64,000 nt of DNA from Polytrichum commune. Lineage: Eukaryota > Streptophyta > Polytrichopsida > Polytrichales > Polytrichaceae. Under the pieces are notes generated by a model. The model did not search any database, had not been told where the DNA came from, and saw only the letters and a program-made list of their open reading frames with translations. Positions 1,676 through 53,700 of this stretch are shown here, in pieces. Positions within the stretch are counted from its first letter, which is position 1, and every line of letters begins with the position of its first letter. The translations under genes and the position numbers were made by a program. The stretch lies in NCBI GenBank assembly GCA_950295325.1, contig OX485805.1:52600758-52664757 (forward strand), read 5' to 3'.

Positions 1676-4600
1676 AGCGAAATGGTCCCACATGGACCTC
1701 AACCTATCAAAATGTGTCATTACCGGATGCCCTAATAAATCTAAACTAAAACCCTCTACCTTCAAAGCATACATCCAATCACAACATATCACATACAACT
1801 CTCAAAATTTCCCCATCCTCACCCAAAACGAACCATATACGTATTTAGGAATAAACCTCACACCATCACTCAAATGGAACCTACAAAAAGAAATAACAAT
1901 GTAGAAAGTCAAACAACAAAGTCAACTCCTAATTACCTCACCGGCTAGCCTCACACAAAAAATCAAAATCTTGAATACAATTATTAAACCGCGAATAGCG
2001 TACGTCTACTACGCCGTCCCATTCTCCAAACCGGATATAAAAAAATTAGACAAAATCATTAGCAAATTAACCAAAGAAATTTGCAACATCCCTAAAAGCT
2101 CGGCCAACATTCTTACCCACCTCCCACAATAGAGCTTTGGCATTAACGTAACCTCCATACTACCCGACTACATCCGATGCATAGGACAACAACTAATCCA
2201 AGCACTTAACGACTCGGGTTAATTAGGCATTATATACCAAGGGCTAACCAAACATATCGCGGCCAAGTACGGTGGGCCCGACACCTCCCCAAACTCAAAC
2301 AACAAGCATGTGTCCGTTCCCCTATAGCCCGAACACTCTTTCTCCTTGAAAGAGAATACGAAATCCACGTCCACTCTACAAGCCAAACATTCCCCATCAA
2401 AGAAACATCACTAGAAATTTTTTGGAAAACCAACCCAAATTATAACACCCTAACGGATATATCTAAAGTCAAGACCCAAAAATATCTAGACAAATTATAC
2501 ATATACGGCATTACCACACTAACACAAATCCAAAACCCCACTACCAAAGCCATACTAACCCCGAAAGAATTTCAATCCACATACAAACACATACCCAAAA
2601 CCATCAAAGAGGCTCTCCAACAAGCAACAATAATGTTCCCCCCCACCCACAAACTTTACAAACCCAATACAACAAACACCACCACAAAGCGAGGTCATGG
2701 TAAACATCCCCCCTCTAGGACAAGCAATCCAAACAATAATAAAAGAAAAAACCTCCACCAAAAAAAACAAATGGAGTGCACAAGCAACAAGGACGAACTA
2801 CCTTTGCCAATGGCAAGCCCCACAATTGCAAGGCATCATACAACAATGGAGAAGTGAGGTAGAACTACTACACCCGGATAATATATTTCTAGAACATAAC
2901 ATACTATGTATTACACAATATCACACAAAGTAAGCCGAACTATTAGCCACCCACACATACGCTAATTGCCTCAATCACATACAATAAAAAGACAACAAAT
3001 TCATACACCCCCCTCTTCACATCACCAACCTAAAATTATCCATACAAGAATGCAACCCAGATAAAGACATTCAATTCAACCAACCATCCAACTACAAAAC
3101 TCTGAAGCCAACATATATATATGATAAAAAAAGGAAACTACATGGCCACCATCACTACAGAAAGACTACAATAGCTATGGAACCAATTCTTTTACCACCA
3201 CTTCTCACAAACTACAAAAGACCTCCAACCCCCACCACAAAACTTTGAAACTGAAATACTTTGGCTAATACAAAGATATATAACCATACTCCCCAAAAGA
3301 AAGCCAAAAAACATACAACCCCAAAACATGCACCATACAATACACCCGACAATTATTAGAACATTAATAAACTCCCTCAAAATCACGCACTCCTACTACT
3401 CATCCCCACTCACATGCCCCACACAACTCACACAATATCACTCACCCCATAACCGAGACATAATATTTGGCTCCATAGGACACGCACAAATATCTAGATG
3501 GAAAGGCATTGGTCTAGCCTACCCCACAGACCATAAAACAACCATTGAAGCCATCCACTGGGCTAGAATGGCGGCCAAAGAAGACTCAAACACGATCACC
3601 ATACTCATAATCAACCATAACGACTGGACCACACAACAAATCCCACTTACCACAAGTGGTGACATACACACCCTCGCAACCATCCCTCCGCATACCATAC
3701 TATATAACCCTACGCCGGAATGGCCAAAATATTACCAATACGTAGAACCCTCGCTCACAACAATACTATGTATACATAACCACACCAACCTCACACCAAG
3801 CCTAAAAACCCCACAAGACCTCGCACAAGTACTAGAACATACCATCAACGCACCCATAGACACATTCCCAATCAAACCCACAACGCCAAATTACCACATT
3901 AAATTCTCGAACATATGGAAAAACGCCCCCATAAAAAACATCCCCCCCCCCCCACCAACAATCCCCCAATCAAACCTCCTCATTAAATACTACCACCGAC
4001 ACCCCCCCCCCAAATTCCACCCACAACAAAGCATGTACACAGATGGCTCATTCATTCCACCAACTAAGAACTCGGAAGGTCAAATAGAGGGTGACATCGC
4101 AGGTTCAGGAGTATATAGCCCCAACACAAACATCCGTATAGCAGAACGACTACCAGGATATCAAAACATACTTAGAGCAGAATTAAATGCTATACTCATA
4201 GCAGTCAAAACCATTCAAGTCACAAAAATCGAAACACACATCTTTACAGATAGCCTTAATAACATATATCTACTTAGTAACCATATACAACACCCAACCT
4301 CACAACACCACCACCCGGACAAAATCCTCATAGCCGCCATAATACACCAAATTTACCTAACACCGCACTTAGTACATATACATAAAGTACGTGCCCACAC
4401 GGGCATCAAAGGAAATGAAATAGCCGCTGCGCTAGCCAACGAAGGCACAAATAAAGAAAAACCCACTCCCACACCCCATATACACATCGCACACGCCACA
4501 CCATATTGGCTAGCAAGTTGCCCCACAGCAACACGCAATGGGGCAATTCGAAACTTGCACACATTCATCACAAAAACACACGAAAAACAAGAAGTTAGGT

Positions 4601-4989
4601 TGGCCCAACACAAACACCCATATGTAGACAAATGGCTCTCCAATGACCAAATAAACCACAAACTCTCCAATCACTTTTGGAAAAACAATAAAATAACAGA
4701 CGCTCAAATCACCCAAACTTTAAAATTTCGATATGCCCAATACATGGGTAACCATAGAAAGAATATTTTTTGGCCCCTCAAATTTCAAAATCCAAACTGC
4801 ACATTATGCCGTAAAAATGAAAGAGACACATGGCCACACTTACTCTCAACGTGCGAACACCCATACTTAAAGGGCCTAAGAATAGCACGCCACAACAAGG
4901 CAGTACATCTCATCACCCAAACACTCCAAGCCAACAAACACACCAGATATTACACACTAACAAATGCAGGTAATATCAACAACAACAAG

Positions 4990-4998
4990 CAAGAACGA
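4990..4998. repeat. Target-site duplication of the foldback element (left); partner 6064-6072
   Basis: CAAGAACGA at 4990-4998 matches CAAGAACAA at 6064-6072 in 8 of 9 positions. A 9-bp duplication is the hallmark size for the MULE superfamily. Confidence 0.65.
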
Positions 4999-6063
4999 TG
5001 CTAGGGTGAACCAGCACCTACACTTGTACCTTCGGGGGATGAAGGCCTTGCGGATGACACTGAAAACTTCATCCTTCTTTATGGGGAAGCCCGCTTGACT
5101 ACAAATCCCATATTGAGTGCACTTCGCCTTCAAGGTCTAAAATTCAATATATATGTGCACTTCCAATTAGTAAATAAGCAATTCATTGGGATTTCATTCC
5201 GGAAGTGAAACCATCAATGAAGCATGTAATCAACTTGAAGGTCAAATAAAATTACAAAATCCTCATTAACATTGAGGTTATAATTTTTTTGACTTACCAT
5301 TTGAAATTCTCTTTGTCATTATAAAATGACACTTAAATTTAGTGTGATGATTTAGTATGTATATTTTATAATATTTTAATAACGCCGCCTACTTTCACAA
5401 GTATTCATACACATTCAAACCAATTAAGTGTGATTTAATGTCATTAAGTCTAATTAATTCTGATGAATCCTATTTAAGCCCAAATAAATCAGAAAAGTGT
5501 GCTTACCAAATAAAGTAAGAATAATTAATTATAATGTTTAATTACTGTAATTTAATTCAATTACTTCCAGTAATTAACTGAACCAATTCATTCCAGTAAT
5601 TCTTTTCAGCAATTAAATTAATTAATTAATTCCAGTAGTTTATTTATTTATTTATGAATACTTGTGAAAGTAGGCAGCGTTATTAAAATATTATAAAATA
5701 TACATACTAAATCAGCACACTAAATTTAAGTGTCATTTTAGAATGACAAAGAGAATTTCAAATGGTAAGTCAAAAAAATTATAACCTCAATGTTAATGAG
5801 GGTTTTGTAAATTTATTTGACCTCCAAGTTGATTACATGCTTCATTGATGGTTTCACTTCCAGAATGAAATCCCAATGAATTGCTTATTTACTAATTGGA
5901 AGTGCACATATATATTGAATTTTAGACCTTGAAGGCGAAGTGCACTCAATATGGGATTTGTAGTCAAGCGGGCTTCCCCATAAAGAAGGATGAAGTTTTC
6001 AGTGTCATCCGCGAGGCCTTCATCCCCCGAAGGTACGAGTGTAGGTGTTGGTTCACCCTAGCC
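4999..6063. mobile_element. Foldback / MULE-like element with ~410-bp inverted arms
   Basis: The left arm (4999 to about 5410) reappears as reverse complement at about 5652-6063 with only scattered mismatches. Termini read TGCTAGGG and CCCTAGCC. The central loop of about 240 bp is AT-rich with repeats of CAGTAATT type. Flanks read CAAGAACGA (4990-4998) and CAAGAACAA (6064-6072), a 9-bp target-site duplication with one difference, as expected of Mutator-like elements. No transposase is encoded, so it would be non-autonomous. Removing it leaves the LINE frame continuous, so insertion came after the LINE copy was in place. Confidence 0.82.
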
Positions 6064-27928: not shown

Positions 27929-28208
27929 GGAGAACAAAGAAGAGGCACGAGGGATTCAAGAAATGCGGCTTTATTCTGGATTTGGACACTGTTAAGTTTT
28001 ACATGGAGCGCAACTCCTCACCCCCACCTCTACCAGCACATCTCCTGCCCTACCAGCCCCTCCCACTGCATTCAACTACCAGATCTACATCCCCTGCACC
28101 CCTCCCCTAGAGGGAACAACATCGAGCAGAAGTGGAGCAGCAGCCGATGCAGCAGCAGCAGATCTCCACCGACGGCATCCCACGCGGCGACCTCCCAACT
28201 AACAAAAA

Positions 28209-30683
28209 ATGGCCTCCGACGTCGCCCACCTTCAACACACCCGGCCCAGCAGATGCAGCAGCAAGGCAGTCGCAGCAGCAACGAACCTGCAGATCAAATC
28301 CGGCCCTCCTCGCTCCCCACCAACACCGCCCCAGAAAGCACCATCCACACCTCCAGCACCGTCCCCCGCCAAGCAACCAGGTACCACAAACCTCCTTACA
28401 ACACCCCAATGTATCACTCCATCTTACACCCCCCCCACCCCGACTCAAAACCACACAACACTCACACAAATCCATCACACACAGATCCACACAAAAAACA
28501 CCTCACACACAAACACCACACACAACTCACTCAGGAGACTCCAACAACAGCTTACCTCGAAAAAAGTCGAGCATCCTCGCGAACCCTCTCAACGCCACCT
28601 CAGAAGCCACTCCGCAACACACCCTAACCGGCAGCCGCAGCAGCAAGACGTCCGCAGCAACAACATCGTCGCCAACCAAGCCCAGCCCTCCTCACCCTCC
28701 ACTAACACAGCGTCAACAAGCGCCACTCACATATCCAGCAACACCCTCCGCAACTCACACAGAAGCCCCCTAACAGCACAATATACACAGCAGCCGAAAG
28801 GGCAAGACGTCCGAAGCCGCAACGCCACCAAAGCTCAGACCTGGCCCTCCCCGCATCCCACCAACACAGCCACGACAACCACCACCCACACAGCACATCC
28901 CCCTACTCTGGCCTATGAATACACACAACTCACACACATTCACCACCCTCAGCTACATCCAAGACGCATCTCACACACAACTACCATACAATTGCCAATA
29001 AGAATACTAAACCAACAGCTTACCTCGGAAAAGACCGAATACCCTCAAGTACCCAGTCGCCCACTCAATGACGCTAAGTACATAATCCACACTCTCACGA
29101 CCACACACAAGCACCCTTCCATACACAACTCCACACACAACAGGTACACATACACCAATCCTCCCACAGGACAACCAAACTCACCCACTGGAACCACAAA
29201 CGTGCCTACTAATCCCCGAACCCCAGTAAAATCTCCCAGATTGCCCACCTCTTCGCAAACACTCATAGACCGAATAAATTACCTACACACCCACCACACA
29301 ATTAAACCCAAACACACACACACACCAATCACATCAAGACAACACAGTCCATGCCCAATTCCTAAGACATACCTACCCCCTCACACCCCCAAAATAAGCC
29401 CGAAACAAGTCATTGACACACACCCCAGGATAAACGACACTTACACCCAACATGACACACACACACGCTCCACCAAATACAACAAATCCACACCAGACAC
29501 CATACAAACCAGGTCACGACCTCTCAAAACAGTGCCCACCGAACACAAAGACAAGACCCCACACCGCAGCACACCCCATAAACAAACCCCACAACTCACA
29601 CTCGCCCAATCTAAGCCCATACACACCCAATCTAAGCCCACACACAAATCCCACTCCCACCCATACCACCCCCAAACAACAAAACGCCATACCTGGCTAC
29701 ACCCACCTACATTGGCAGCCAACAACGGAAAACACACACCAAAAGCCCACAATAGCCCCCACACCCATCTACTTAACAAACCCAGCAAAGAGACATCCCC
29801 ACACCTCACAACACTCTCATTCCAATCCAGCTACCAGCATCCCACCCTCAATCCTCCTACTCCATCCCCCTTCTCCCGCAAGTCATCGCTCCAAAACACT
29901 CATCTCTCACCTCGTACACTCTTCTCCTCCCACCATAGACATCAGCATCTCCCTCCCACCTCTTTCACCTCTACCATCCCCCTTTCAACCTCACATACCC
30001 CACTCGCACAGGCTCCACTCCACACCTTACCCCTCTCTCGCACATTCCCTCTCCCTCACTGTAGACACAAATTCTCCACTTCTACTCAGACCATCACACC
30101 CGCCGTAGCTCACAATTCACCTCCACAGGAAGCCTCTGCTCCCTCCTATAGCACACTACCCCTCCTCCGTCTCTCTTCCACATACTGCGACCACCTGCCC
30201 ACCGGCATCTGCCCCGAACATAGCATCGACCACACAACAACGACCCACGACGAACAGCTCCACCCGGCACCGACTCACTCCGAAGGCTCCAACACCGAAC
30301 GCGCTGGCCAGGCAGTCTCCCCAACGACGCCCCCACAAATCCGACCCACTGCAGCAACACCGACGCGGACCTGCACAACACCAACACAACTGCTAAGTCG
30401 ACAGATACACCAACACTACCCCCGGAGCAGCAAGACCACAACAATCGACCCCCAACACCGAAACCACCAACCCAGGCCGCCACACGAGACTCTACCACAA
30501 GCAATTCAGCAACCAGCAACACCATCACGACAGCATCCACAATCAAGGACCCACTACATCAACACCCACAACAATCCCAGCTCCAGACATCACACTGACA
30601 CGCTCCCACCCCACCCAACACCGGCTCACAATCAACACCGCAACATCCCTGCTAAAGAAGGTAACCCCGGCTCCAATACCTGA
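28209..30683 (+). CDS. 824-codon low-complexity open frame upstream of ORF1 (possible ORF0)
   Basis: A single plus-strand frame stays open for 824 codons and stops 5 bases before the ORF1 ATG. The protein would be rich in Pro, Thr, His, Ser and Gln with few hydrophobic residues, no recognisable domain and no membrane segment. The strand is A/C-rich, which lowers stop frequency, and the other two plus frames also hold 120-220-codon open runs. A rough estimate from the composition still gives about one stop per 50 codons, so this length looks more than accidental. It could be a disordered nucleic-acid-binding or Gag-like product, or a translated leader. I cannot confirm that it is expressed. 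Confidence 0.45.
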   Translation: MASDVAHLQHTRPSRCSSKAVAAATNLQIKSGPPRSPPTPPQKAPSTPPAPSPAKQPGTTNLLTTPQCITPSYTPPTPTQNHTTLTQIHHTQIHTKNTSHTNTTHNSLRRLQQQLTSKKVEHPREPSQRHLRSHSATHPNRQPQQQDVRSNNIVANQAQPSSPSTNTASTSATHISSNTLRNSHRSPLTAQYTQQPKGQDVRSRNATKAQTWPSPHPTNTATTTTTHTAHPPTLAYEYTQLTHIHHPQLHPRRISHTTTIQLPIRILNQQLTSEKTEYPQVPSRPLNDAKYIIHTLTTTHKHPSIHNSTHNRYTYTNPPTGQPNSPTGTTNVPTNPRTPVKSPRLPTSSQTLIDRINYLHTHHTIKPKHTHTPITSRQHSPCPIPKTYLPPHTPKISPKQVIDTHPRINDTYTQHDTHTRSTKYNKSTPDTIQTRSRPLKTVPTEHKDKTPHRSTPHKQTPQLTLAQSKPIHTQSKPTHKSHSHPYHPQTTKRHTWLHPPTLAANNGKHTPKAHNSPHTHLLNKPSKETSPHLTTLSFQSSYQHPTLNPPTPSPFSRKSSLQNTHLSPRTLFSSHHRHQHLPPTSFTSTIPLSTSHTPLAQAPLHTLPLSRTFPLPHCRHKFSTSTQTITPAVAHNSPPQEASAPSYSTLPLLRLSSTYCDHLPTGICPEHSIDHTTTTHDEQLHPAPTHSEGSNTERAGQAVSPTTPPQIRPTAATPTRTCTTPTQLLSRQIHQHYPRSSKTTTIDPQHRNHQPRPPHETLPQAIQQPATPSRQHPQSRTHYINTHNNPSSRHHTDTLPPHPTPAHNQHRNIPAKEGNPGSNT

Positions 30684-30688
30684 TTTCC

Positions 30689-32815
30689 ATGGAACACACT
30701 AATCAGTCTTCAGGTACCAAACAGGCGGCTACACTCAACGCCCAGCACAACGATTTCCGCCAGCAAGTCGTCTCACAGCCGCCAATCCCCAACACGTCCC
30801 AGCTTTCGAATCACGCCCCGCACCCACATCAACATCATGAATGCGACGCCGAGGAAGACCTTGACATGGACGCACAACTCGAAGATGTGTCCCCAGAACG
30901 AGGTGGGAGTTCGCTCCAATTGACATACGACCGCTCCTCACACCAAGCCGCACATGCACTACCCAACAACTCCTCACTCCACATCGAAAGTACGCCCCCA
31001 ACACTCCAATACCGCAACCCCCGAATTGAAGATGTCTCGGAGAGCCAATCCACCAAAAGAAGGAAGGCCGACGACTACACCGCCACCTCCGCGCCCGACA
31101 TCTCGCACAAACCCACACCAACACCGCCAAGTTCGAGAGCAAAGAGGATGGCCACCCTAAGCATCGACATGACCGGGCACATGTGGCTCGGGTTTCAAAT
31201 GCATGAGACACTAGCCATATTACGTGGAAAGAAAGAGTTGAAGGAGAAGCGCACCGACGAAGAGTTTGCCAACATTGGCACACCCGCCAATGAGATACAA
31301 GAATTCCGCTCACTACGAAGAGCATTCCCAAGAACCAAGCAATTCCTATACCCCAACGAACGTCCGGATGCGGTTACCGGGCAACATCTACACTTCACCC
31401 AAATCCCTATGTACGAGAAGATATCACAAGACACGGGCCTCACCGAGGGATTCCATGTTACCATCCGTTTTGACGGAGAATACAAGAAGCTCAACCGGAA
31501 GGAAGTCAAAACCGCATGCATGGAACGACTCCGGCTCATGAATATGCCATTAGGTACCACCTACTCGAACCCGATCGACATCGGCATCAACACGGTGACA
31601 AGGAATTGGAGCGGATTTGTTAAAATTCACCTTCAATTCCCAATGAGAGATGGACTAGCACTACTCCGTGGAGAGAGAGCCTTCGTCATGACAATGGGAG
31701 ACGGAGAAAGGCTCATTGGAAAAGTGGAAAAAGGCTTTGAACTCATCACCAAGGCAAAGAACATGAGGTTACACCTTAAGGGTGAAGCTCTCCGCAACCA
31801 CACGGCATTGGACATACTCCGAAACCTCATGAAGGATTTCTACTACGACGGGCGCGAAGTGGAAATCCTTTCCCTCACCAAGTCGGAATCGGAGAGGGAT
31901 TTCGCCTTCATCACCCTCACTACCGAGGAAGCAAGAAATGACATCCTCACCAACGGGCTCACTTTTCACGCCGAAAAGCTTAAGGTGAGCATCACAAAGG
32001 ACAAAACCATGAGCAACCCTTCGGAGTTAAGAATTAGTACCACCCTTGTGGCTATTAACTTACCTCAACGCGAGTCTCAATCGGCGATCACCAACACTCT
32101 CAAGAAGCTATTTGGAGAGGAGAACATCACCGGCGTCACCTTCGGACACAAGACCAACCTCGATGATGATAGACAAGCCGGTTGGTGCCACGTCCAATGT
32201 CTTAATGCGGCGGTTTACACGGAGTGGCTACATAAGTCCGCATACATCCTCGGAAGGCGAGTAGACTTCGTGCCACACAAAGGGAGTATAGACGGCACCG
32301 CACCGCACCAAACCGCCATCCGACTCGCACAAGCCCCCGTACGCGAGGTCATAGCTCAAAAAGCCCAAGCAATGCACAACACCGCCGCATCCGCCCCACT
32401 AGTCTCGGAGAAACTCTTCACCAAAGCGATGAAGAAACTTGCCGAGACAATGGACGACAAACTCACCACGCTCATACACAACATCAACCTCAATACGGAT
32501 TTACGCATAGAGGATTCCACGGACACCCTCAAGTCCCATGCAACCAACATACACAACATAATGAGTGCCATGGCCATGGAGTTTCAACAATCGAACAATT
32601 GCATGCACAACATAATGCAAACCTTGGCCGCCACTTCACCGGACCCCCCACACACCAACATGGCAAGACTCCCATCCGCTCCAAGCACTTCCCTCACCAA
32701 CACACACGCGGGCGACATCAACATACCACAACAAGCTCCACCGGGTTTCCATAGTGCTCACTTTAGGAACTCCCCAACAAGTCTCCACAAAGGCCAATAC
32801 CCTCCTCATGAATAG
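30689..32815 (+). CDS. LINE ORF1 protein, intact, 708 residues
   Basis: In LINEs the ORF1 product binds the element RNA to form the particle. This ORF starts at an ATG in the context CCATGG. The first ~150 residues are polar and low-complexity, with a basic patch STKRRKADDY that may be a nuclear signal. The middle is folded: residues about 250-350 (FHVTIRFDGEYKKLNRKE... FVKIHLQFPMRDG) and about 450-540 (LVAINLPQRESQSAI... GWCHVQCL... LGRRVDFV) have the beta-alpha-beta pattern of RRM-like folds. A helical region follows (KLFTKAMKKLAETMDDKL), possibly a coiled coil, then a Pro/Ser-rich tail. No CCHC knuckle seen. Base composition is far more balanced than in the flanking parts of the element. 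The RRM call is by pattern only. Confidence 0.8.
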   Translation: MEHTNQSSGTKQAATLNAQHNDFRQQVVSQPPIPNTSQLSNHAPHPHQHHECDAEEDLDMDAQLEDVSPERGGSSLQLTYDRSSHQAAHALPNNSSLHIESTPPTLQYRNPRIEDVSESQSTKRRKADDYTATSAPDISHKPTPTPPSSRAKRMATLSIDMTGHMWLGFQMHETLAILRGKKELKEKRTDEEFANIGTPANEIQEFRSLRRAFPRTKQFLYPNERPDAVTGQHLHFTQIPMYEKISQDTGLTEGFHVTIRFDGEYKKLNRKEVKTACMERLRLMNMPLGTTYSNPIDIGINTVTRNWSGFVKIHLQFPMRDGLALLRGERAFVMTMGDGERLIGKVEKGFELITKAKNMRLHLKGEALRNHTALDILRNLMKDFYYDGREVEILSLTKSESERDFAFITLTTEEARNDILTNGLTFHAEKLKVSITKDKTMSNPSELRISTTLVAINLPQRESQSAITNTLKKLFGEENITGVTFGHKTNLDDDRQAGWCHVQCLNAAVYTEWLHKSAYILGRRVDFVPHKGSIDGTAPHQTAIRLAQAPVREVIAQKAQAMHNTAASAPLVSEKLFTKAMKKLAETMDDKLTTLIHNINLNTDLRIEDSTDTLKSHATNIHNIMSAMAMEFQQSNNCMHNIMQTLAATSPDPPHTNMARLPSAPSTSLTNTHAGDINIPQQAPPGFHSAHFRNSPTSLHKGQYPPHE

Positions 32816-33563
32816 AATAGCCATAGCATATACATGGACGATACTCACACACATACTTTGTATTACTTATTTTTATATTATAAATAATAAACATGCACTT
32901 TTCACCCAATAAAACTACCACACTTGCTCCATACACCAACATTATTAGGCCCAACCAAAAATCAAAAAGATACTTCCTAAACACCAAAATACACAAAGAC
33001 CCATATACTCAACACCATAAGATAGCACATCACAAAATCACAACAAACACCACACAAACACACAACACAAATAAAACACCCCACCTCACCCCACCCCAAA
33101 CCCACACGCTAGTGAATATCCTCATTCTTTTGATAACATACGCCCACCAATATAACCCAACACTACACAAATCAACATTATCTCTAACACACCAAGACCT
33201 CCCACAATACACACTCCCAACGAATGCAACACCATACACAAAACACCCCCAAAACCACACACATTTAACCCCCCCCCTAATACCCCAAGACACCAAGCTC
33301 CTACACCACACTTCTACACCAACTTCCACCTCATACACAAAACATACTTACATACCCCAAGTCAAACTAGCCACAAAAGAGGTACCTCGCATACATATAC
33401 CACATATAAGCACACCCACAACGCATATACTATCTACCACAATACACCCCCACTAATCGCCCCAATCAACACGTTAACCCACATTGGCAACATATATTAC
33501 ATAACACACACATACCAAAAAACTCCAAAACTTAAAAACATACAATACTACACCTGGAACAAC

Positions 33564-33611
33564 TCCACACTCATCCTTCAACATGGAGACATTGAACTAA
33601 ATCCAGGTCCG
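33564..33611 (+). other. 2A-type ribosome-skipping motif at the front of LINE ORF2
   Basis: In the ORF2 frame the sequence reads STLILQHGDIELNPGP; the core DIELNPGP is at 33588-33611. It matches the 2A consensus D-(V/I)-E-x-N-P-G-P, with skipping expected between Gly (33606-33608) and Pro (33609-33611). Known 2A motifs in LINEs of trypanosomes and several animals sit, as here, upstream of the APE domain. Function in this plant is inferred. Confidence 0.9.
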
Positions 33612-34219
33612 CTATCAACCATCCTCAACAATCTCCCCCAAGCATACACACTCAGACAAAAACATTATTTCATACCAAACACACTATCGCTCAAACCTAA
33701 ATACACACACCTAGGACAAATATTCGAACCCTACATAAACCCAAGCACACTCAACCCCCCACCACAAAACCTACCACATCTACAACAACACCTCTCACTA
33801 CTCTCACAATATCCCACACAACACCACATATATGCACTAATCATAGCCTATAGTCCCATACCTCAAACATGCAACCAACAAATGACCCAAAATTTAGACC
33901 CAAGATACCTAACCATACTAAGAAGACTCCGCTCCCTCCCAGAAATAGCACCAACAAACACCATAACACAAGCCTACCCCAATATTAACGATAACACAAG
34001 TACACATGCATACTCCCACATTAATAACAGCATTGCTAGAGGCAAAGAAACAAACCTACATGACATAAAAACGAAACTACCTTACATACCCCGGAAAATT
34101 CTCGAAGAACTCACCAAGTGCACCCAACCAATACGGGGATACCACCCACACACCCAAACCACCAACACCAACCACACACCACAAACTAATACGACTCCAC
34201 ACGACCAACAAATAACGAC

Positions 34220-34980
34220 ACTGAAGATAATCACATGGAACACAGGATGTATAAGCTCTAGCCTCCCTGGTATCCAAGAACTTACGCAAACCCTACCCAC
34301 AGACCCACACATCATACTCATACAAGAAACCAAAATTCAAAAACTAAAATCCACAACATACATTGATAGAAAATTCCAAAGCTACAAAATCATTTACAAC
34401 AACTCCAACAACCTAACCAACAAACAAAATCGATTTACCGGACCTACCACGACAAGAGGAGGCATACTCGCAATGATACCTAAAATCATATACACAAACG
34501 AAAACATTACCAAAATACCCACCCCTAGCCTCATATCACACTACTTACAAGCCATCCTTATCAATAACAAACCCATCACACCAATACTCCTCCTAAATAT
34601 ATATATGCCGTCACATCCGCACGACATACATCTTATACAAAATATCCAAAATGAACTCCGAACTCTAACCACCCGCCACCACAACCATCACATCATCCTA
34701 GCAGGAGACTTTAACCGAGATATACTACTCAAAGGAAGATCATCCAACGGCCAAATCTCCCCCCCTAACCAAGAAGACTACGAATGGGCCCACTTCACAA
34801 GCACCCTCGGACTCCACCCGATAAACAACCAAGCACAACTTACAAGACAAGGGGGCCACAATTATACTTCAACTAGCCACATTGATGGCTTCTATTCAAA
34901 CCACAACAACACACAATGTCACACCATACTAAAGTTTAACCAAAACTCCGACCATTACCCGGTACAACTCCAACTACCCG
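34220..34980 (+). other. APE-type endonuclease domain of ORF2
   Basis: Motifs in order: KIITWNTG (Asn), ILIQETKI (Glu), LLLNIYMPS, ILAGDFNRD (Asp and Asn), HIDGFYS and SDHYPVQL (Asp-His). These are the catalytic and metal-binding positions of AP-endonuclease-like LINE nucleases that nick the target DNA. No stop in this segment. Confidence 0.92.
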
Positions 34981-35883
34981 CTAATAGCATTGCCCTTAAA
35001 GAAACAACCATCCCTCCCACCAACCCCCGTATCATATACCCCATACCCCCCACTAACCTCCAAAACCTACAAACAACCTTCCTAGAAGAACAAAACCTAG
35101 AAATAGACAACCTCACGAGACTGCTACACCAGGAACGACTCACATATACTCAATGGGAAGACGCACAAAATAAATTCCAAAACATTATAAACTCTCTCAG
35201 CCGATGTATTGAAGAAACGTGCATGACACCACCCACACCTCCACTTACCACTAGAGCGAAAACCCAAGGAGGATTTCTACCCCGAAAACAACAAAAATTA
35301 TGGAAACACCATCTTAAAATATATCACAGAGCGCGCAAAGCTATTCGAGCTGCCTGCCGACATCCCCATACCCATCTCCAACACCACCCCAACATTAGAT
35401 CTCTGACACTAATAAACAACCTAGACATCCCCCTCTCCCTACAAACCCCACAGAGCATACACAATGGATAGAGGAAATAGCTAACATAGGAAGGAAAGCA
35501 AAAACCGAAGCACACAAAATAATAGTCAAACAGACCACAATCAACTGCAAAACCGCAATCACAAAATATCGAGCATTACTCAACATAAAACCCAAAACCA
35601 TACACAAAAAGATATTTCACCCAACAATCGAAAGTTCCCTAGATTGCATGCAGAATTCCAATGGAGACATCCTAACTAAGCCCCTAGATATAGCCAACGA
35701 AATATATTACACACAACAAGCATCTTTCTAGAGACAAGCCCCACTATGCAGCGACATCACAGATCACCCAAGCACATGTCAATGCGCAATCCGTAAATAC
35801 CCTTGGCATACACACAACGGCATAATACTAGACAAAAGAGGCCCCCATAACACATCCATAAGCACCCAATTTACAAGGGCAAT

Positions 35884-36990
35884 CTACGACAACTGCGTCA
35901 AAAGATTAACTAGAGGCAAAGCCCCCGGCCCTGACAACATCCCCAACGACATACTTAAGGCACTACCATCACAATGTCAAGACCTCATTTTCCTATTTTT
36001 TCAACATTGCTACAAACAAAGGGAAATCCCAACCTACTGGAAACAAAGTAAAACCATCCTACTCCATAAGAAAGACAACCCTATACACCTCGCCAATTAT
36101 AGACCGATAGCACTAGCCAATACTATATACAAGTTATATACTAGCACCATAACAGCTCTCCTCACGAGCTACGGGGAACAACATAAAATAATACATTTTA
36201 GCCAAGAAGGTTTCCGACCACAACAAAACACCTCCAGACAACTACAAACCATAATCGCAGCCCTAGAAGACGCCAAACTCACCAATAAAGACATTTACCT
36301 CACCTATATTGACTTCCGAAACGCCTTCGGATCCATCGACCACGCAAGACTACTAGCCTTAATGGAGGATCTAGGCTACCCTGCCGACGCCGTTGAAATA
36401 GTCGGCAACATATACAAAGATTCCACCACCTCTTTCACAGGTAACCACTTCGGCACAACACCCCCGATAACAATTAGCCGGGGCACCATACAAGGGGATA
36501 CACTTAGCCCATACCTATTCATAATATTCCTAGAACCATTGCTCAGATAGTTAGAAAAAGATGACATGGGTTATCACTTTACTACATCCACCGCCACCTG
36601 CACCACTACCGCCTACGCCGACGACCTCGCAATCATCACCGACAATATCAAATACATCCAACCACAAATACTTAAACTACAAAAATTCGCCGAATGGTCA
36701 TATATGGACCTCAATCTCTCCAAATGTGCCATTACGGGATGCCCTAATAAATCAAAACTTAAACCAAACACCTTCAAAGCCTACATACAATCACAAAATA
36801 TCACCTACAAAGGAAAAAATCTCCCCACCCTCACACAAAATGAATCATACGCTTACCTAGGCATCCAACTAATACCATCCCTCAAATGGAACCTCCAAAA
36901 AGAAATTACACTCCAAAAGGCCAAACAACAATGCACACTACTAACTCTCTCCCCAGCCAGTCTTAAACAAAAAATTAACATCCTAAACAC
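35884..36990 (+). other. Reverse transcriptase domain of ORF2
   Basis: Seen are RGKAPGPDNIPNDIL, NYRPIALANTIYKL, SQEGFRPQQNTS, LTYIDFRNAFGSIDH (catalytic Asp), GTIQGDTLSPYLFIIFLEPL and AYADDLAI with YADD at 36614-36625. These are the standard LINE RT blocks. A TAG at 36548 falls in LLR*LEKDD, where LINE relatives commonly have Trp. Confidence 0.95.
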
Positions 36991-39057
36991 GGTCATAAAA
37001 CCTCGCATAGCCTATGCATACTACGCAGTCCCTTTCTCCAAACCCGATATCATAAAACTAGATAAAGTCATAGGTAGACTAACCAAATAAATCTGCAACA
37101 TACCCAAAAGCACGGCCAATATCTTAACTCACCTCCCCCATGAAAAATTTGGCATAAATGTAACCTCCCTCCTACCTGATTATATACACTGCATAGGTCA
37201 ACAACTCATCCAAGCCCTTAACGACCCCGGCCAACTAGGACACATATACCAAGGCCTAACCAAATACATAGTAGCCAAATACGGAGGCTCGCTACACCTC
37301 TCTAAACTCAAACAACAAGCATGCACAAGATCTCCCATAGCAAGAACCCTCTTCCTACTGAATAAAGAATATGAGATCCACGTCACCACAACAAATCGCG
37401 GATTCCCCCTCAAGAAAACCCCCATAGAACAAATGTGGATAACCCAACAAACATACGCCAACCTCACAGACGCTTCCAAAATAAAATCACATAAATATCT
37501 AGCCAAACTATACACACACATAATAACAACAATAACGCAAATTCAAAATAAAGAAACCACGGCCATCCTAACCTCGGATGAATTCCGGGCCATTTATAAC
37601 CATACGTCCAAAACCATAAAAGAAGCACTACAACACGCCTCCACAATATTTCCACCAACAATACCACCACACAACACTTAAACCACACCCAACAAACACA
37701 ACCAACACACACAAGCATAACACACACCCCCAACCCTCCCCCACAACCCACCCTAGGACGAACAATTCACAAAATAACCCAAGAAAAAACCTCCACTAGA
37801 AAAGACAAATGGGGAGCACAAGCCATCACAAAGCAATACTTATGCCAATGGCAAACCTCACATGGAACCACACTACAATGGCGAAAAGAGGAGGACCTCC
37901 TACATCCGGACAACATACTACTAGACCACAATCTATTACTCATCACACAATTCCAAAATACAACAATGGAACTCCAAGCCACTCAAAGATATGCCACCCA
38001 CACCACACACACCCAATCAAGAGACAAAAAATACATACGTCCCCCCATCCACATCACCAACCTACAAACCAACATACAAGAATGCAATCTGGACAAAGAC
38101 ATCCTTAGTACCAAACCTACCATACAAATACACAACCTAGAATCCAACATACATGACCATAATGGTAAATACATAGCCACAATTACCACGGAAAGACTAC
38201 ATTGGTTATGGAACCAATTCATCCACAACAACCAACCCCACATAACCAACTTCCTACAACCGCCCCCACAAGACTTCGAAACCGAAATAGTATGGCTTAT
38301 GCAAAGATACATATCCATACTCCCTAAGAAGAAACCAAAAGTCATACAACCCAAAAACCAACACCAAACGCTACACCCGGACATCACTAAACTACTCATA
38401 GAGACATTCCACATCACACACTCATACTACTCATCCCCACTCACCTGTCCTATCCAACTCACACAATACAACTCACCACACACCCGAGACATAATATTTG
38501 GCTCACTAGGACATGCCCAATCCTCTAAATGGAATGGTATAGGCCTAGCATTCCCCACAGACCATAACACAACGATCGAAGCCATACACTGGGCTAGAAT
38601 GGCGGCCAAAGAAGACACACAAACAAGTACCATATTAATAATAAATCACGATGATTGGACACCAAAGAGCATCACACTCAACAAACACCCAGACATACAC
38701 ACAATAGTAACCATCCCACCACATAGCATCCACTATAACCCCACGCCCGAATGGCCCAAATATTACCAATACACAGAACCATCCCTCACGTCCATCATAT
38801 ATATACATAATCAAACAACACTCACAACCACCCCACATATTCCACAAGAACTAGCAAACATACTAAAAAGAATAACATCCACAAATATTGACATACACCC
38901 TATTAAACCTACCCACATACAATACAACGTTAAACTCTCAAACAAGTGGAAAAACGCCCCCCAGGTAAAAATCCTCCCCTCCCCTAACACCACCCCCACA
39001 CCCCTACCTCCCACATACCACCACATTTACCCCCTCAAATTTGACCCATTATCATGC

Positions 39058-39480
39058 ATATACACAGATGGCTCATTCATCCCGCCATCCAAAAATTCTG
39101 AGGGACAAATAGTGGGCAATCTCGCAGGGTCGGGAGTGTATAGCCCCAACAACAACACCCAAATCTCAGAAAGACTACCCGGATATCAAAACATCCTAAG
39201 AGCCGAACTAAATGCAATCCTCATAGCTATAAAAACCATCCAAACTACCCAAAGAGACACACACATATTTACAGATAGTCTTAATAGCATATACTTAATC
39301 AATAACCACATACAACACCCAACATCCCAACACCACCACCCCGACAAACTACTCATCGCTGCCATTATCAACCAAATATACTGGACCCCACAAATGATCT
39401 ACATACACAAGGTAAGAGCGCACACAGGCATTAGCGGAAATGAAATGGCGGATACACTAGCAAATGCAGGAACACAACAA
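39058..39480 (+). other. RNase H domain of ORF2
   Basis: YTDGSF (Asp), GSGVYSP, RAELNAI (Glu), IFTDSLNS (Asp) and VRAHTGISGNEMAD (His, Asp) give the full RNase H type I active-site set in order. It would remove the RNA strand after first-strand synthesis. Open in this copy. Confidence 0.93.
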
Positions 39481-39821: not shown

Positions 39822-40370
39822 CTGCACACTATGCCAAAGAAATGACAGAGACACATGGCCCCACCTACTATCAACATGCGAACACCCCTATTTAAAAGGG
39901 CTTAGAATCTCAAGACATAACAAAGCTGTCCATTTGATCACACAAACACTACAAGCCAACAAAAATACCAGATTCTTTACACTGGCCAATGCTGGTAACC
40001 TCAACAACCAACCGCCAGACAACACGGTACCCGATTGGCTCCTAGCATGCACATGCCCGCAAACGCCATGCCGCTGCCAAGCCAAACTAAGACCTGACAT
40101 AACGTGCATTATAGGAGCCCACAACCAATCACCAACACCGATGCTACCCTCCCCTAAACATACAATCCAATTCATCGAATTTACATACTGCCATGACAGA
40201 TTTCCTGAAGAAGCACTCACCCATAAACACACTAAATATGACCCACTCATCAACACCATACAAAACAACGGATGGAAAGTCAACCCTCTAATCACCATCA
40301 CAGCTGGAGTAAGAGGTGCTATCCACGAACATTCCATGGAAAAGCTAACCAACCTAAAAATCCCAAAACA
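39822..40370 (+). other. CCHC finger and restriction-like endonuclease domain at ORF2 C-terminus
   Basis: CTLC-x9-H-x4-C (39822 onward) fits the C-x2-C-x(7-9)-H-x4-C finger that precedes the R2-type restriction-like endonuclease, and the RHN motif follows (RISRHNKAV). Downstream, LRPDITCIIG (Asp) and IEFTYCHDR (Glu) fit a PD-(D/E)-x-K nuclease core. The lysine of the core is not clear to me. Both LINE copies keep these residues. Confidence 0.72.
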
Positions 40371-40525
40371 CAACATTAAAACCCTCATGAAGAAAATACA
40401 TGAAAATGCCATCAAATATCTCACATACCTCGTCCTAAACAAAAGAAAACTCGATAACAAATAAACCCCTGTCCCCCCACCCTAACTAAACTTAATTAAT
40501 ATAATATAATATAATGTGATAACAA

Positions 40526-47790: not shown

Positions 47791-50700
47791 GATACAACCA
47801 CATATGAGCTCTTTGACGAAGGCAGCGTGAGCCAGACCAGGAAGAGGCGGCGCTCTTCCTTGCGCCGTGTGAGCTTTGCGGAGCGGCCGTCGATCCATGT
47901 TTTCGCCCGTGACGATGATTACGAGACACCACCGGAAGGAACTACTTCGCATTTTTCTGGCCAATCCTCGCCAGGGACCAGCATGTCCACGAGCCCGCAG
48001 CGGCGTTCTGGAAGGCTCATCGCTGCCGCAAGAGGGAGAGAGAATGAAATGGAAAAAGAGAATACTGTGCCTAATCTCAGTGTTGGCAGCAATGCGCGGG
48101 ACGGGAGGCGAGGGAGACGGCCCCTCGCAATCAGGGGCAACGATAAGGTTAAGGAGAGTGAAGAATTTTTGAAGCCGAGTACCTGGCTTGATGAGCCAGA
48201 AGCATCTGCGTTCGGAAGGTAAGTAAGCGGTCTCCTCTCTTGCAGAGATAATGGATACCTTCGCATTTTCGTAGAAAATATGATAAGGTAAGGTAGAAAT
48301 ACCAGAACCCGTGAAAATAAGGTGATTCGCATTGAAGATCTGGTCTGACAATCATGAGATAATTTTCCAAGATAGACGAGAAGGATTCATGAAGAATGCA
48401 AGTTGTTTCATATTTTTCTGCCCTATACAAAAAATGCTACAATTTTTTCAAGTGGAAAATTGTCCAAACCCCTACTCGTTCACTAGATTCTCCCTAAACC
48501 GAACATGGTAATGTGCATTTCCATGCAGGACATCGTCTAAATCAATTACCTCATGAGTACATTAACACTTGACTCCCATTGGCTACACTAAGTGTACACG
48601 CATTGAAGTTGCCGCCGAGCCATGCACGGCTAGAGGGTGGTTAATGGGTTATGGTATTACTACCTTAAGTGGGTCATAAACGGATACTTTTAGTTTTGTA
48701 GTTAGTTCTTGGAGAATATTAAACACACATTGGAAGATGAGTACATAAGCAAGTCCAAATTCATTTTTCTCTTTATTTTTGGAGCTCATTGAATATCTTA
48801 TTCATTATTAAATTGAAGATTCTCTTTCTCATTAAATGATCATATACGTCCTCGGATTTGTTGTTTATTGAACCTAGAATGACTAACAAATCATGAGCAC
48901 ATAATCCAATCTCTTTTGAACACACGTCTTTTTAGTGTCTGTTCTTAAATCCACACCTTACCACACCACTCATATATTAGGTGTCTGTCTACGACGAATA
49001 ACCCAATTAGACCCGCTTACCTTAGTCGTTAAGAATTTCACACCTCTCTGCCAATCAGCACTGTGAGCTTCCCTACATATTAATATTACGTACTGTACTT
49101 CCCCCTCAAATTATAGTCATCAAGAGAGATTTCCTTCTGTCGTGTACGGTTCTGGCGATCCTGACAGCCCATTGTGCATTCCATCGCTACTGGTTTTTCA
49201 AGTTCACAGATGTTCTAATTCTTTCCTTTCTTAGTTCCCCTCTGGATACTTAAATCAAGTTTTCCATTGATTATGAGACAAAATCTTGATTTGATTGATT
49301 TGGTTTCTCTTCTATCTGCTCGTGAGCTGCCCATATACCCATCCTCGCATCTTTACCTTCGTACCACAATCTTGCAACGCAGCTGTGATGAGAATACGGG
49401 TCCCGTGGATCTACGCCATATTTCGTTTGGGGAACAGAGGACAACTGTGGAAGACGACGATAACGTCACAATGGACAGCCAGACGTTCAAAACTAGAATG
49501 TCCTTAGTGCTTGCAAGACAGCCGCTGCAACCACTTTCCGAAGAGAAGTTTGTACACGTAGCGACGCCTACAGACACGAACACGGACATGGAGCTGACTG
49601 CTTTCGAAACTGAGCGTAAACTGCAAGGCAAGCATAGACCGCCGACTTGGCATAGAAGTGATAATAGCCCCAGCGATATGAGTTTATCCCTAGGGCCCTT
49701 GCAGTGGAAATTCTCTCATATTGGAAGCAGCCAGAAACGTAAGCAGGTCGGGGGTGATGATGATGACAGGTCTTCTGGTTTATTGGAGGATTCCCAGCTA
49801 CAGAGCAGGAAGTCGAACATTCAGATGAATAAATTGGCCGCACTGCCTGCAAACGATGATACGGTTTCTATGGACACTACCTCCATGGACACCACATTGG
49901 ATTCTGTAGATGGAAATAACCTGACTGAGGAAGGTGATAAAATGCCATCTTCAGGAACTATGAGATTTGCAGATCCTAAAGATAATGACGATACAGTGTC
50001 GATGGATATTACAGGGCAATCGCTGGCCAGTCAAACATTGGAAAATACTGAGACTTTGGACAAGAAATTGAAGGATTGTGAGGAGGACGACCGATCTTTG
50101 GTCAATGAAGATTACTCTGAGCCTTTGGAGCAAGATAGCAGAAATGTTTTGGAATCAAGTGCAGTAAACTTAGAGATTGAGAATTCTCTCTTGCAGGGGC
50201 AGAGCATAGGTTTAGAGAGACAAGATGCCTACCAAGCACACGATGAGACAATTAATTTTAACAACTCCTCCAAGGTGTTCAAGGAGCATGTGCACTTGGC
50301 AGCTGATAATGATTCCTTTGGAGCCTTACAGCAGAATGAGAAGGTTGCCGAAGTGAGTGCAACAAACTCTGCGGGTGAAAAATCCCTCTCCCAAGGAAGG
50401 AGCACGTTCCTGAAGAGTTCAGAGTCGTTTCAAGCACACGATGATACATTTACCTTAAATAATAACTCTAATATGTTCAAGGCGCATACACACTCGGCAG
50501 CTGATGATGATTGCTCTGGGACTTCGAAGCAGAATGGGAAGGTTACTGAAGCGCGTGCAACAAAGCCAGAGAATGACAGAGCTCTCTCTCAAGGAAGGGG
50601 CGGTCTCTTAGAGAGACTAGATTCATTGCAAGCACACGATGAAACGGTTACCTTCAAAAACACTTCGAAGGTATTCAAGGATAATTTACACTCGACAGCT

Positions 50701-53700
50701 GATGACGGTGCTTTTGGGGCTTTGAAGCAGAATTGGAAGTTTACTGAGGTGAGTGCATCGAATCCTGAAGGTGAAGGAAGGAGCACGCTCCTGGAGAGAC
50801 TAGATTCATTGCAAGCACATGATGAAACGGTTACCTTCAAAAACAATTCGAAGGTATTCAAGAATAATGTACAATCGACAGTTGATGACGGTGCTTTTGG
50901 GGGATTGAAGCAGAATGGGAAGTTTACCGAGGTGAGTGCACTGAATTCTGAAGGTGAGAGCTCTCTCTCTCAAGGAAGGAGCATGCTCCTAGCGAGGCTA
51001 GATTCATTGCAAGCACATGACGATACGGTTACCTTCAAAAACACTTCAAAGGTATTCAAGGATAATTTACATTCGACAGCTGATGACGGTGCTTTTGGGG
51101 CTTTGAAGCAGAATGGGAAGTTTACTGAAGTGAATGCATCGAACCCTGAAGGTGAAGGAAGGAGCATGCTTCTAGAGAGACTCGATTCATTGCAAGCACA
51201 TGATGAAACGGTTACCTTCAAAAACCCTTCGAAGGTATTCAATAATGTACAATCGACAGTTGATGACGGTGCTTTTGGGGCTTTGAAGCAGAATAGGAAG
51301 TTTACTGAAGTGAGTGCATCGAACCCTGAAGGTGAGAGCTCTCTCTCTCAAGGAAGGAGCATCCTGCAGAAGAGACTAGACTCGATGCAAGCACACGATG
51401 ATACGGTTACCTTTAAAACCAATTCTAAGTTGGTGAATGGTAATCTACACTCGGCAGCTGATGACGATGACTTTGGGACTTCGAAGCAGAATGGGAAAGT
51501 CTCTGTGAGTGCACCGACCTCAGAGAGTGAGACCTCTCTCACAAAAGGAAGGAACATGCTGCTAAAGAGACTAAATACAGTACAACCCCACCATGAAAAT
51601 GATCCTATGGAGACATTGTCACAAGAGCGAGATAGTCGGTTTGATCCTGGACGTGGCGCACAAGGTTTTAATTCTGGAGCAACCGTTTCATACGTAAGTT
51701 CGAGGGGACCTTTGGGCTCCAAAGGGCATAATGATACAGTGTCATTGGAAGCAACATCTCAGTCACAACCTAACAAGTTTCAGTCGGAAGGTCAAATGGG
51801 GAACTCATACCCAGGAAATGATGAGACGGTCTCGATGGACATCACTAGAGCGTTGACGGGAAGGATTCAGCAAATTGCTTCTGCTCAACGACTGTCAACG
51901 GACTCTGCAAAGCCTTTTGTTTGGTTGAGCAATGTTCAAGACATGGATGTGTCAGACGCAGATTTAACCGACAAATTTCAGGACAGAGTTACAGCGGCGA
52001 TCCCACACTTAAAGGACCTTCTGGATGCGTATCCTGAGACACCATCAGCACCTGGGCATAATGCGCCTTTACCCGCTTTGACAAACCAGAACTCACAAAG
52101 AGGGATAGACGTTGATACTGAGACTTTTGAAGGACCGAACCTCAGGCGAGGAAATATATTACTTAGAGGAGCAGATCGTCATGAAGCCTCGGACATACCC
52201 ACTATCGTATTAACAACGAATTTGGAACGTAAAGAACCTTTTCGAGATTCTGAAGACACATTCAGCTTCAAGGTGCCCCAACATAGCTCGCAAAAAAAGA
52301 AGAGAGAAAGTCTTGAGGGACCGTTAGAGGAGCTAGCTTTCGCATCTCAGCAGGTACATACTTGGACTTTTTTTGTATTGCATCATGAGGTTGATAGCTC
52401 ACTCTTTGATTCTTCTAAATCAAGATGACAAAACATCTTGGTATATTTCATTGGTTCCCCAGTAAAAACAGTAGCGAAGCTCCACAAGCTCAGTGTTTCA
52501 TTCCCTAGACTTAGAAAAAGATGTGGTGATGATGAATTGCAGATTCTATTCTTGTAATGCAAATATGCTGTTTCTGATAAGCTCCTGAAGCAATGTGCCT
52601 GACCTTTGAAGATATCTATGTTGAAGTCAGGGATTGAGATAAATGGCAGGACCGTCAATAATCAGTAAAGAAAATAAGAAATAATATATGGTATTTGCAG
52701 TAGTGATGGTCATATGTTTCTGCCAGAGATATTAGGTTAAACAACTTTGAAACGTGGGTTTGTGCATGCTTCCATCTACATTTCATGTTGTCCACTTTTC
52801 TGGACTAGTTTTAATTAAGTTACTAATAAGGATAGTTGTCTGCCACAACTGCTCACTGCCATCTTCTTTGCGTTTTTCTTGGGCTTACGAGTGTTGATTA
52901 TCACACAGGTAGGAGCCTTTCGACCAGTGCTATCCGATGTTCAGGATACAGTTCATTCCATGGAGTCCAACCTGTGGAATAATTCAAGTGCAGCTCTGCA
53001 GAAGTTGGGACCCAATTTACAAGACGGGGACAATACGCGGGAACTCACTAACCAGGACGACTGGCTGGGAGATGCGTCAAGTGACATGAGTACCACTCCT
53101 TTATCACCTAGAAGACCAAATTTCTTGCAGGGTCTGACAAATAATCCTCAAGGTTCTGCGTTGCAAACTGGATCTGATTTCATGGATTCCCCATCCCTTC
53201 AAGATGGTATCACAGCAAGCATTCCAAAGGTTAAGGACCTTTTAGCTGCTGATGAAGGGGCTTCAGAGTCAGAGTCAGCTTGGAACCCCAGAAGGATCAG
53301 CTGGAGCACCCAACACCAATCTCACCAAACTGTGGTCAGTATTTCTGAACTGTGTTCAAAACAGAATTTTTATATTAAGTTGATGAAACATAATGACCCT
53401 GAATTGTTAAAAAAAGAACCTGTTGAATTATTCAGGTTGTCATGGGTCTCTCAAGCGCTAACACTTTTTCTCCTTTCATGACTAAACTTGAAGAGGATTT
53501 GATACAGGGGGACATACCAGCTTCAATGTGCCAGCCAAGGCTAGATCCCACAGAAGACGAGACAATACATTCAATGCCTGACAATCTTCGCACACCAGGA
53601 GTGCAGAACAAGGAAGATGTTTTTTTGAGCATGACAAATGAGGGAGCAAATGCTCTTAATGTCATGTCTCACACTAAGGAGGTTCAAAACAGTGCAGCAA

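Follow-up and report, generated by a model that had tools for sequence, protein, structure and literature searches.

A probable 2A (StopGo) sequence at the front of ORF2 in an abundant, Dualen-like LINE superfamily of a plant

An abundant LINE superfamily of a plant genome very probably carries a genuine 2A (StopGo) sequence at the front of its ORF2, whose product would be expressed by reinitiation followed by release. The motif lies in the window, by which we mean the whole stretch of 64,000 nucleotides that was analysed (C3:52600758-52664757), and it was followed through the genome searched (408 Mb, 64 contigs). A preliminary description of the window had interpreted it as a 2A that releases ORF2 from a leader protein, and this interpretation is supported by the sequence comparisons reported here. 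That ribosomes skip at the 2A of a plant LINE is something we infer from the known class of such sequences.

The 2A motif of the window and the element that carries it

The core octapeptide DIELNPGP is encoded at 33588-33611 on the + strand (GDIELNPGP at 33585-33611), with its D codon at 33588-33590 and NPGP at 33600-33611, and it fits the published consensus (D/G/C/N)(V/I)ExNPGP. In its sequence context the motif reads ...YYTWNNSTLILQHGDIELNPGP..., the residues just before DIELNPGP being YYTWNNSTLILQHG; a 2A of the window type, with about 30 upstream residues and the core, is LILQHGDIELNPGP. The preliminary description had placed DIELNPGP in the frame of the APE domain, and this was confirmed. 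The 2A frame is open from 33156 to 35471 (+) and also holds the APE domain, for which both Pfam matches are above cut-off (Exo_endo_phos_2 1.4e-8, Exo_endo_phos 2.5e-7). From the stop that precedes 33156 up to the motif, this frame contains no Met.

A six-frame scan of the entire window found one [DGCN][VI]ExNPGP and one NPGP. The full 2A core did not occur in 60 first-order Markov windows or in 300 simulated ORF2 regions, whereas bare NPGP turned up at a rate of 0.62 per window in the same 60 windows, so that NPGP by itself is unremarkable and the full core is remarkable.

Chance occurrence of the window motif is rejected on these simulations together with the codon data between clusters of copies given below.

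The window copy is dead. Its ORF2 has stops at 35469, 35729, 36548 and 37088 plus frame changes, and because of this decay its domains were found in pieces (Table 1). No single open frame joins the leader ATG at 32808 to the 2A, a break that is partly due to the variable C run between the two frames. ORF1 of the window gave no Pfam match at E<=0.001. Directly 5' of ORF1 there is an open frame of 826 residues (28203-30683), which may be compositional or may belong to the 5' region of the element; further long open frames in the window are found at 49219-52428 (1069 residues) and 3175-5004 (609 residues).

Table 1. Features of the element copy in the window (positions are those of the window)
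Feature	Position	Strand	Remarks
ORF1, stop-to-stop frame	30665..32815	+	ends CAT GAA TAG
Leader/ORF2 start overlapping the ORF1 stop, ATGAATAG, AUG-n2-UAG	32808..32815	+	read from sequence
Leader region before the 2A, hydrophobic segment first	32808..33584	+	frame broken in window copy
C9 run separating the leader frame from the 2A frame	33269..33277	+	C7 to C13 in related copies
Candidate 2A/StopGo module YYTWNNSTLILQHGDIELNPGP	33546..33611	+	predicted missing bond: Gly (33606-33608) / Pro (33609-33611)
ORF2 N-terminal region, 2A to APE	33612..34229	+	common to copies
APE-type endonuclease, 2A frame	34230..34964	+	Pfam PF03372, PF14529
Reverse transcriptase, split by the stop at 36548	36065..36868	+	both pieces match Pfam PF00078, the second slightly below cut-off
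PCIF1_WW-like segment	38266..38526	+	Pfam PF12237 1.6e-6, below cut-off in window
RNase H domain	39055..39474	+	Pfam PF00075 1.3e-16
Putative restriction-like endonuclease (RLE)	39823..40461	+	C-x2-C...H...C, RHN, PDI, IEFTY, K..KY residues

The domain order could be followed further in copies with long frames. A Pfam scan of three of them (L005, L008 and L010) found APE, RT, a PCIF1-like segment and RNase H in all three. The APE match was over the cut-off in L005 and L010 and just under it in L008 (22.6 vs 24.5 bits). The PCIF1_WW-like segment sits between RT and RNase H; its match was under the cut-off in L005 and L008 and over it in L010 (2.7e-12, ORF2 residues 2106-2234). We take PCIF1_WW to be the family of the mRNA cap adenine methyltransferase, with NPPF presumably as its motif at the corresponding position; by eye, AHPPN is found near this position in L010 and AFPTD in the other copies. 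A PDB profile search with the PCIF1-like region gave no PCIF1 match, the best hit being a glucosyltransferase at E 0.18.

The residues listed for the RLE in Table 1 are those that we read as RLE motifs, and in five aligned copies the zinc-type and PD...E...K residues are invariant or nearly so. A PDB profile search with this putative domain returned six matches at E 0.74-1.2, no better than chance; two of them were one R2-type protein (E=1) over the zinc region and the rest were FtsI-like, the best hit (E=0.74) being an unrelated protein. The RT profile matched R2 proteins in PDB at 149-131 bits, L1 at 96-94 bits and a further R2-type protein at 84-80 bits. Of the dual endonuclease claimed in the preliminary description, the APE half thus holds in Pfam; the RLE half stands at the level of motifs only, its PDB profile match being at chance.

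Dualen/RandI elements, as described in the source text available, encode both APE and RLE, plus RNase H (PMC4640811). The presence of APE, RNase H and a putative RLE provisionally points to this group. We call the element Dualen-like rather than Dualen because its RLE is recognised at motif level only and the assignment is one of domain content. A scan of viral contigs for relatives, run with the RT alignment and two short peptide patterns, gave 152 pattern matches, none of which was confirmed.

On contig C8 (146,561 bp) there is an intact green-type rbcL whose protein matches green-type Rubisco large chains in PDB, beside a frame that looks like accD by eye. We conclude from this contig that the host is a green plant. 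Fragments of rbcL at C3:14137891-14138196 and C2:70106055-70106189 are probably plastid DNA insertions.

Conservation of the core among genomic copies

A query of 192 residues, starting 18 residues before NPGP, gave at least 153 matches in the genome at E<=0.001, a lower bound since only the best candidates were scored. The most distant of them are 32-38% identical over the query. We fetched 801 bp around each of 99 anchored copies, the better-scoring part of about 150 listed places. NPGP is present in 82 of the 99; the exact published core was found in 39 and, with position 14 (p14) left free, in 80. In 15 of the 17 copies without NPGP the motif has one or two residues altered or contains a stop (for example NLGP, NPGS or NSGP), and in the other two (L069 and L088) it has more than two changes. 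The preliminary description had made its reading depend on the motif being kept in other copies. It is kept in most. Since the query held the motif, 18 matches that begin downstream of it were also inspected. Ten showed an intact NPGP in a shifted frame and two a decayed motif, while six had no motif near the expected place; one of the 18 coincides with L009.

The codon test used 95 copies in 28 clusters at 85% nucleotide identity and counted differences between clusters. The clusters contain up to 13 copies, many of which are very similar to each other. Across the 28 clusters, the synonymous share of codon differences was 93%, 90% and 90% at p11, p12 and p13 (G-D-I) and 89%, 90%, 88% and 79% at p16 to p19 (N-P-G-P). 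Drifting columns lie in between and directly after, at p14 (6%), p15 (18%), p20 (12%), p21 (9%) and p22 (14%). Other flanking positions are partly constrained, with 38-62% at p6-p9, 61% at p23, 60% at p24 and 74% at p28. Amino-acid selection on a 2A would be expected to leave just such a distribution.

The residue at p14 is the variable part of the core. Among the 82 NPGP copies it is E in 40, H in 19, Q in 18 and K in 5, so that 42 of the 82 are non-E. The synonymous share at NPGP was 91% in the E copies and 80% when the Q, H and K copies were pooled; taken singly, Q copies had 89% and H copies 76%, and K copies had too few codon differences for a share of their own. With NPGP synonymous shares staying this high, the non-E forms look unlike decayed relics. 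In viruses p14 is almost exclusively E; H is rare but about 90% active or more, and in the survey text available Q and K are absent from the variants flagged (PMC12846837). Upstream of the core, G precedes D in 94 of the 99 copies and a run rich in L is kept across lineages, a combination that resembles one upstream class of viral 2As in its published outline. At p10 we found S or C in 46 and H or G in 48 of the 99 copies; the lineage of the window has H, in contrast to the A/S/C that the L-rich class, as outlined, has there.

A search of the genome with the DNA pattern for D-[I/V]-[E/D/Q/H/K/N]-x-N-P-G-P gave 444 sites (239 forward, 205 reverse) vs 0 for the reversed pattern used as control. 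Thirty-two hand-picked sites, each of them on contig C1, were inspected, and 31 of them adjoin the ORF2 N-terminal region on the same strand. The one site without ORF2 next to it (L161) is open on both sides. The residues before the core vary by lineage (YYTWNNSTLIL, YIIDLQVLILL, GYYFINKLELLKC, FSLHLLLLLS). An additional C1 lineage of the GYYFINKLELLKCGDIE[P/S]NPGP type, outside the 99 copies, comprises L131, L133, L134, L148, L152 and others; it has a different leader end, with the same kind of 2A and ORF2 head.

Leader, overlapping start and tandem cores

A search for leader starts covered 26 sources with the pattern Met-[DNV]-[SR] plus a hydrophobic stretch, and the upstream regions of 19 loci were read. 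All 19 primary starts recovered form an ATG-n2-TAG overlap, with the stop at +5 in the neighbouring frame, a count that gives no unbiased rate because the pattern required Met-[DNV]-[SR] and 7 of the 26 sources gave no matching start, L010 and, with its broken leader frame, the window being among them. In the window the ATG at 32808 overlaps the ORF1 stop TAG at 32813-32815. The +5 frame is the long ORF1 frame in the window and in L005, L007, L008 and L009, and presumably it is ORF1 in the remaining loci too. In L010 there is no start-stop overlap, and the first Met follows about 105 nt after the ORF1 stop. Coupled termination-reinitiation goes with stop and start codons that overlap or are a few nt apart (AUG-nx-UGA with x=2, 5, 8, 14; UAAUG; AUGA), and the ATG-n2-stop layout found here fits the AUG-nx-stop arrangement as given in the source text available (PMC5972666).

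The leader that had been predicted upstream of ORF2 could be read: the open 2A frame extends back to a Met-[DNV]-[SR] start in 12 of the 19 upstream regions. In the copies measured, the leader has about 170-520 residues up to the last 2A, and many leaders start like MDSxxxxxHKWxxxxICYxxxxLYNK. Fourteen of 15 leaders contain a 19-residue segment with a mean hydropathy of at least 1.2 (a threshold chosen here), L010 having none. The segment begins within the first 29 residues in 13 of the 15, and its values are moderate (1.2-1.8). When the first 26 leader codons were compared across 15 starts, most codon differences proved non-synonymous, the only columns at 70% synonymous or more being His9 (77%) and Ile16 (70%); hydrophobic character is thus kept more than the leader sequence itself. 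A role of the leader at a membrane would be a guess. At three loci (L009, L117 and L122) a leader start, here Met-[DN]-[SR] followed by a hydrophobic stretch, occurs twice in succession in one frame, with no 2A core in between.

Six copies have long frames, and in five of them (L005, L006, L007, L008 and L010) the 2A lies within the long ORF2 frame. The exception is L009, which changes frame directly after the 2A. The question raised in the preliminary description, whether the motif lies in the APE frame in an intact copy, is thereby answered in its favour. Among the six, leader and ORF2 share one open frame only in L008 and L010; a shift separates them in L005 and L007, and L006 has a stop just before the 2A. 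L008 has a frame of 2382 residues that starts at the AUG of the start-stop overlap, contains two 2As and continues into APE, RT and RNase H. This copy lacks most of the putative RLE because it ends about 109 residues after RNase H. The C run between the leader and 2A frames is interrupted in L014.

More than one 2A core can occur in a copy. The open 2A frame of the 19 upstream regions contains one core in 12 cases, two in six and three in one; L006 and L008 have two in-frame cores each. A locus selected because it looked like a multiple array (L142, C1:66446637-66449237) has four in-frame cores in one open frame (DIQLNPGP, DIELNPGP, DIYTNPGP and DIHPNPGP), one of which has Tyr at p14 (DIYTNPGP). 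Among the 94 listed C1 sites there are 13 same-strand neighbour pairs within 1.5 kb, and 12 of the 13 are spaced by multiples of three (p=1.7e-5), a test that probably overstates independence because related copies can share one array. The sequence between tandem cores is dissimilar while the motif recurs. By eye, what lies between cores is often similar to a truncated ORF2 head, after which a new leader end follows.

Expression path, alternatives and known systems

We propose the following path. Ribosomes would end ORF1 at the UAG that overlaps the ORF2 AUG (AUGRAUAG), and some of them would reinitiate there; the overlap itself was read in the copies. The reinitiated ribosomes would make the leader, whose start is in most cases hydrophobic and signal- or anchor-like and which might act at a membrane. 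The Gly-Pro bond would be skipped at the core, or at every core where as many as four stand in a row, and the leader released; selection on the core was observed in the codon data, and skipping there is expected from the known class. Translation would then resume at Pro and yield the N-terminal region of ORF2 followed by APE, RT, RNase H and the putative RLE. Freed of the leader, the enzyme could enter the nucleus. If in-frame additions upstream are shed in this way, the 5' part would be free to be swapped or stacked, and such freedom would explain both the dissimilar leaders and the tandem 2As. More tentatively, and with rather less than even confidence, we suggest that the 2A is a general buffer that allows coding modules at the 5' side of the retrotransposon to be acquired, exchanged and stacked. 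Every in-frame addition would bring or keep its own 2A, ORF2p would always start at the same Pro, and the plant ribosome would also accept Gln, His or Lys at p14, making the StopGo code wider than in the viral survey.

Other explanations have to be weighed against this path. Skipping might be partial and serve dual targeting, the fused leader-ORF2 product going to a membrane or secretory route and the skipped form remaining free. The hydrophobic segment found in 14 of 15 leaders (within the first 29 residues in 13) would suit such a role, p14 variants may lower the efficiency of skipping, and the 2A signal sequences of sea urchin NLR proteins, as far as described, are a precedent (PMC4981915). 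We nevertheless consider dual targeting unlikely: the hydropathy is moderate (1.2-1.8) and L010 has no such segment, the sea urchin 2A is itself the N-terminal signal while the 2A here follows well over 100 residues later, and a membrane-bound RT is of no evident benefit. The poly-C tract that separates leader and 2A might instead serve for programmed frameshifting or slippage and in this way set the amount of ORF2. The leader and 2A frames of L005 are indeed joined only via a shift near the C run, and the break in the window is similar. Among the copies listed, however, the length of the run ranges from C7 to C13 and stands in no fixed relation to the frame; L006 keeps its frame through a C13 run, and start and 2A lie in one open frame at 12 of 19 other loci. 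Because the run length varies and L006 is in frame, we judge a programmed frameshift to be quite improbable.

Two further readings dispense with a functional 2A. The NPGP box could be an ordinary conserved ORF2 motif, for example a turn or a protease site, at which no skipping takes place. It does lie at the edge of a conserved region, and p6-p9, p23, p24 and p28 are constrained as well. Constraint is nevertheless strongest at the viral 2A positions (G, D, I/V, N, P, G, P), whereas p14-p15 and p20-p22 drift; tandem occurrences of the motif are separated by dissimilar sequence, and the L-rich run upstream resembles a 2A context in its published outline. We therefore give this reading little credence, if slightly more than the frameshift. 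Recent amplification of a chance motif would account for the many very similar copies within clusters of up to 13. It is contradicted by the synonymous codon turnover at the motif across 28 clusters and by the most distant matches, which are only 32-38% identical over the query, and we see hardly any room for it. A genuine 2A at the front of ORF2 remains our preferred reading. Points that weigh against it are the many non-E residues at p14, the H or G at p10 in about half of the copies, the partial constraint on other flanking columns, the weak conservation of the leader and the small number of long copies in which leader and ORF2 share a frame.

StopGo is already a tool in plants, and the part of the 2026 survey available to us finds no evidence for its natural use by plant viruses (PMC12846837). 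A plant LINE superfamily with hundreds of 2A-coding sites, some of them in tandem, would be a case of natural use in plants. The family can be regarded as a large evolutionary experiment on which core residues must stay and which, such as p14, may vary, and its ready-made variants make it testable why LINEs carry 2As.

The 2A sequences of the trypanosome L1Tc and of APE-type LINEs are reportedly the subject of Heras 2006 and Odon 2013. As known from the descriptions that cite them, these elements share with ours a 2A-like sequence in the frame of a non-LTR retrotransposon. The elements described here differ in their plant host and may also differ in having RNase H and a putative RLE, one to four stacked 2As, and a separate ORF1 with an overlapping start and stop. 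In the source text available, 2As in LINE reading frames are reported from trypanosomes and sea urchin (PMC4981915, PMC11512398, PMC5972666); among the literature matches listed, there was no report of a 2A in a plant LINE or of tandem 2As in a LINE. Dualen/RandI LINEs likewise combine APE and RNase H with an RLE, here a putative one (PMC4640811, PMC3747384, PMC8226300). The hosts named in the available descriptions are green algae, whereas the host rbcL here is land-plant-like; those descriptions mention no 2A, and the elements described here have a PCIF1-like segment, the comparison being one of descriptions.

Sea urchin NLR proteins, as far as described, resemble our elements in having a 2A near the N-terminus and a hydrophobic, targeting-like segment, but there the 2A itself is the signal sequence of 26 residues, and here a long leader lies between (PMC4981915). 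Picornaviruses of the Paavivirinae with multiple 2A(NPGP) sequences are similar in that several 2As stand in a row, their number varies between relatives and, in the account available, the stretches between them have no assigned function (PMC11512398). Here the array belongs to a retrotransposon and lies upstream of the polymerase ORF, and the sequence between cores is often reminiscent, by eye, of truncated ORF2 heads. With the viral 2A/StopGo sequences, as presented in the available part of the survey, the copies share the core residues, the Gly before Asp, a partly matching L-rich upstream context, the placement before replication enzymes and the strong amino-acid constraint (PMC12846837). 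They differ in belonging to a plant LINE and not to a virus, and in a p14 that is often H, Q or K and once Y.
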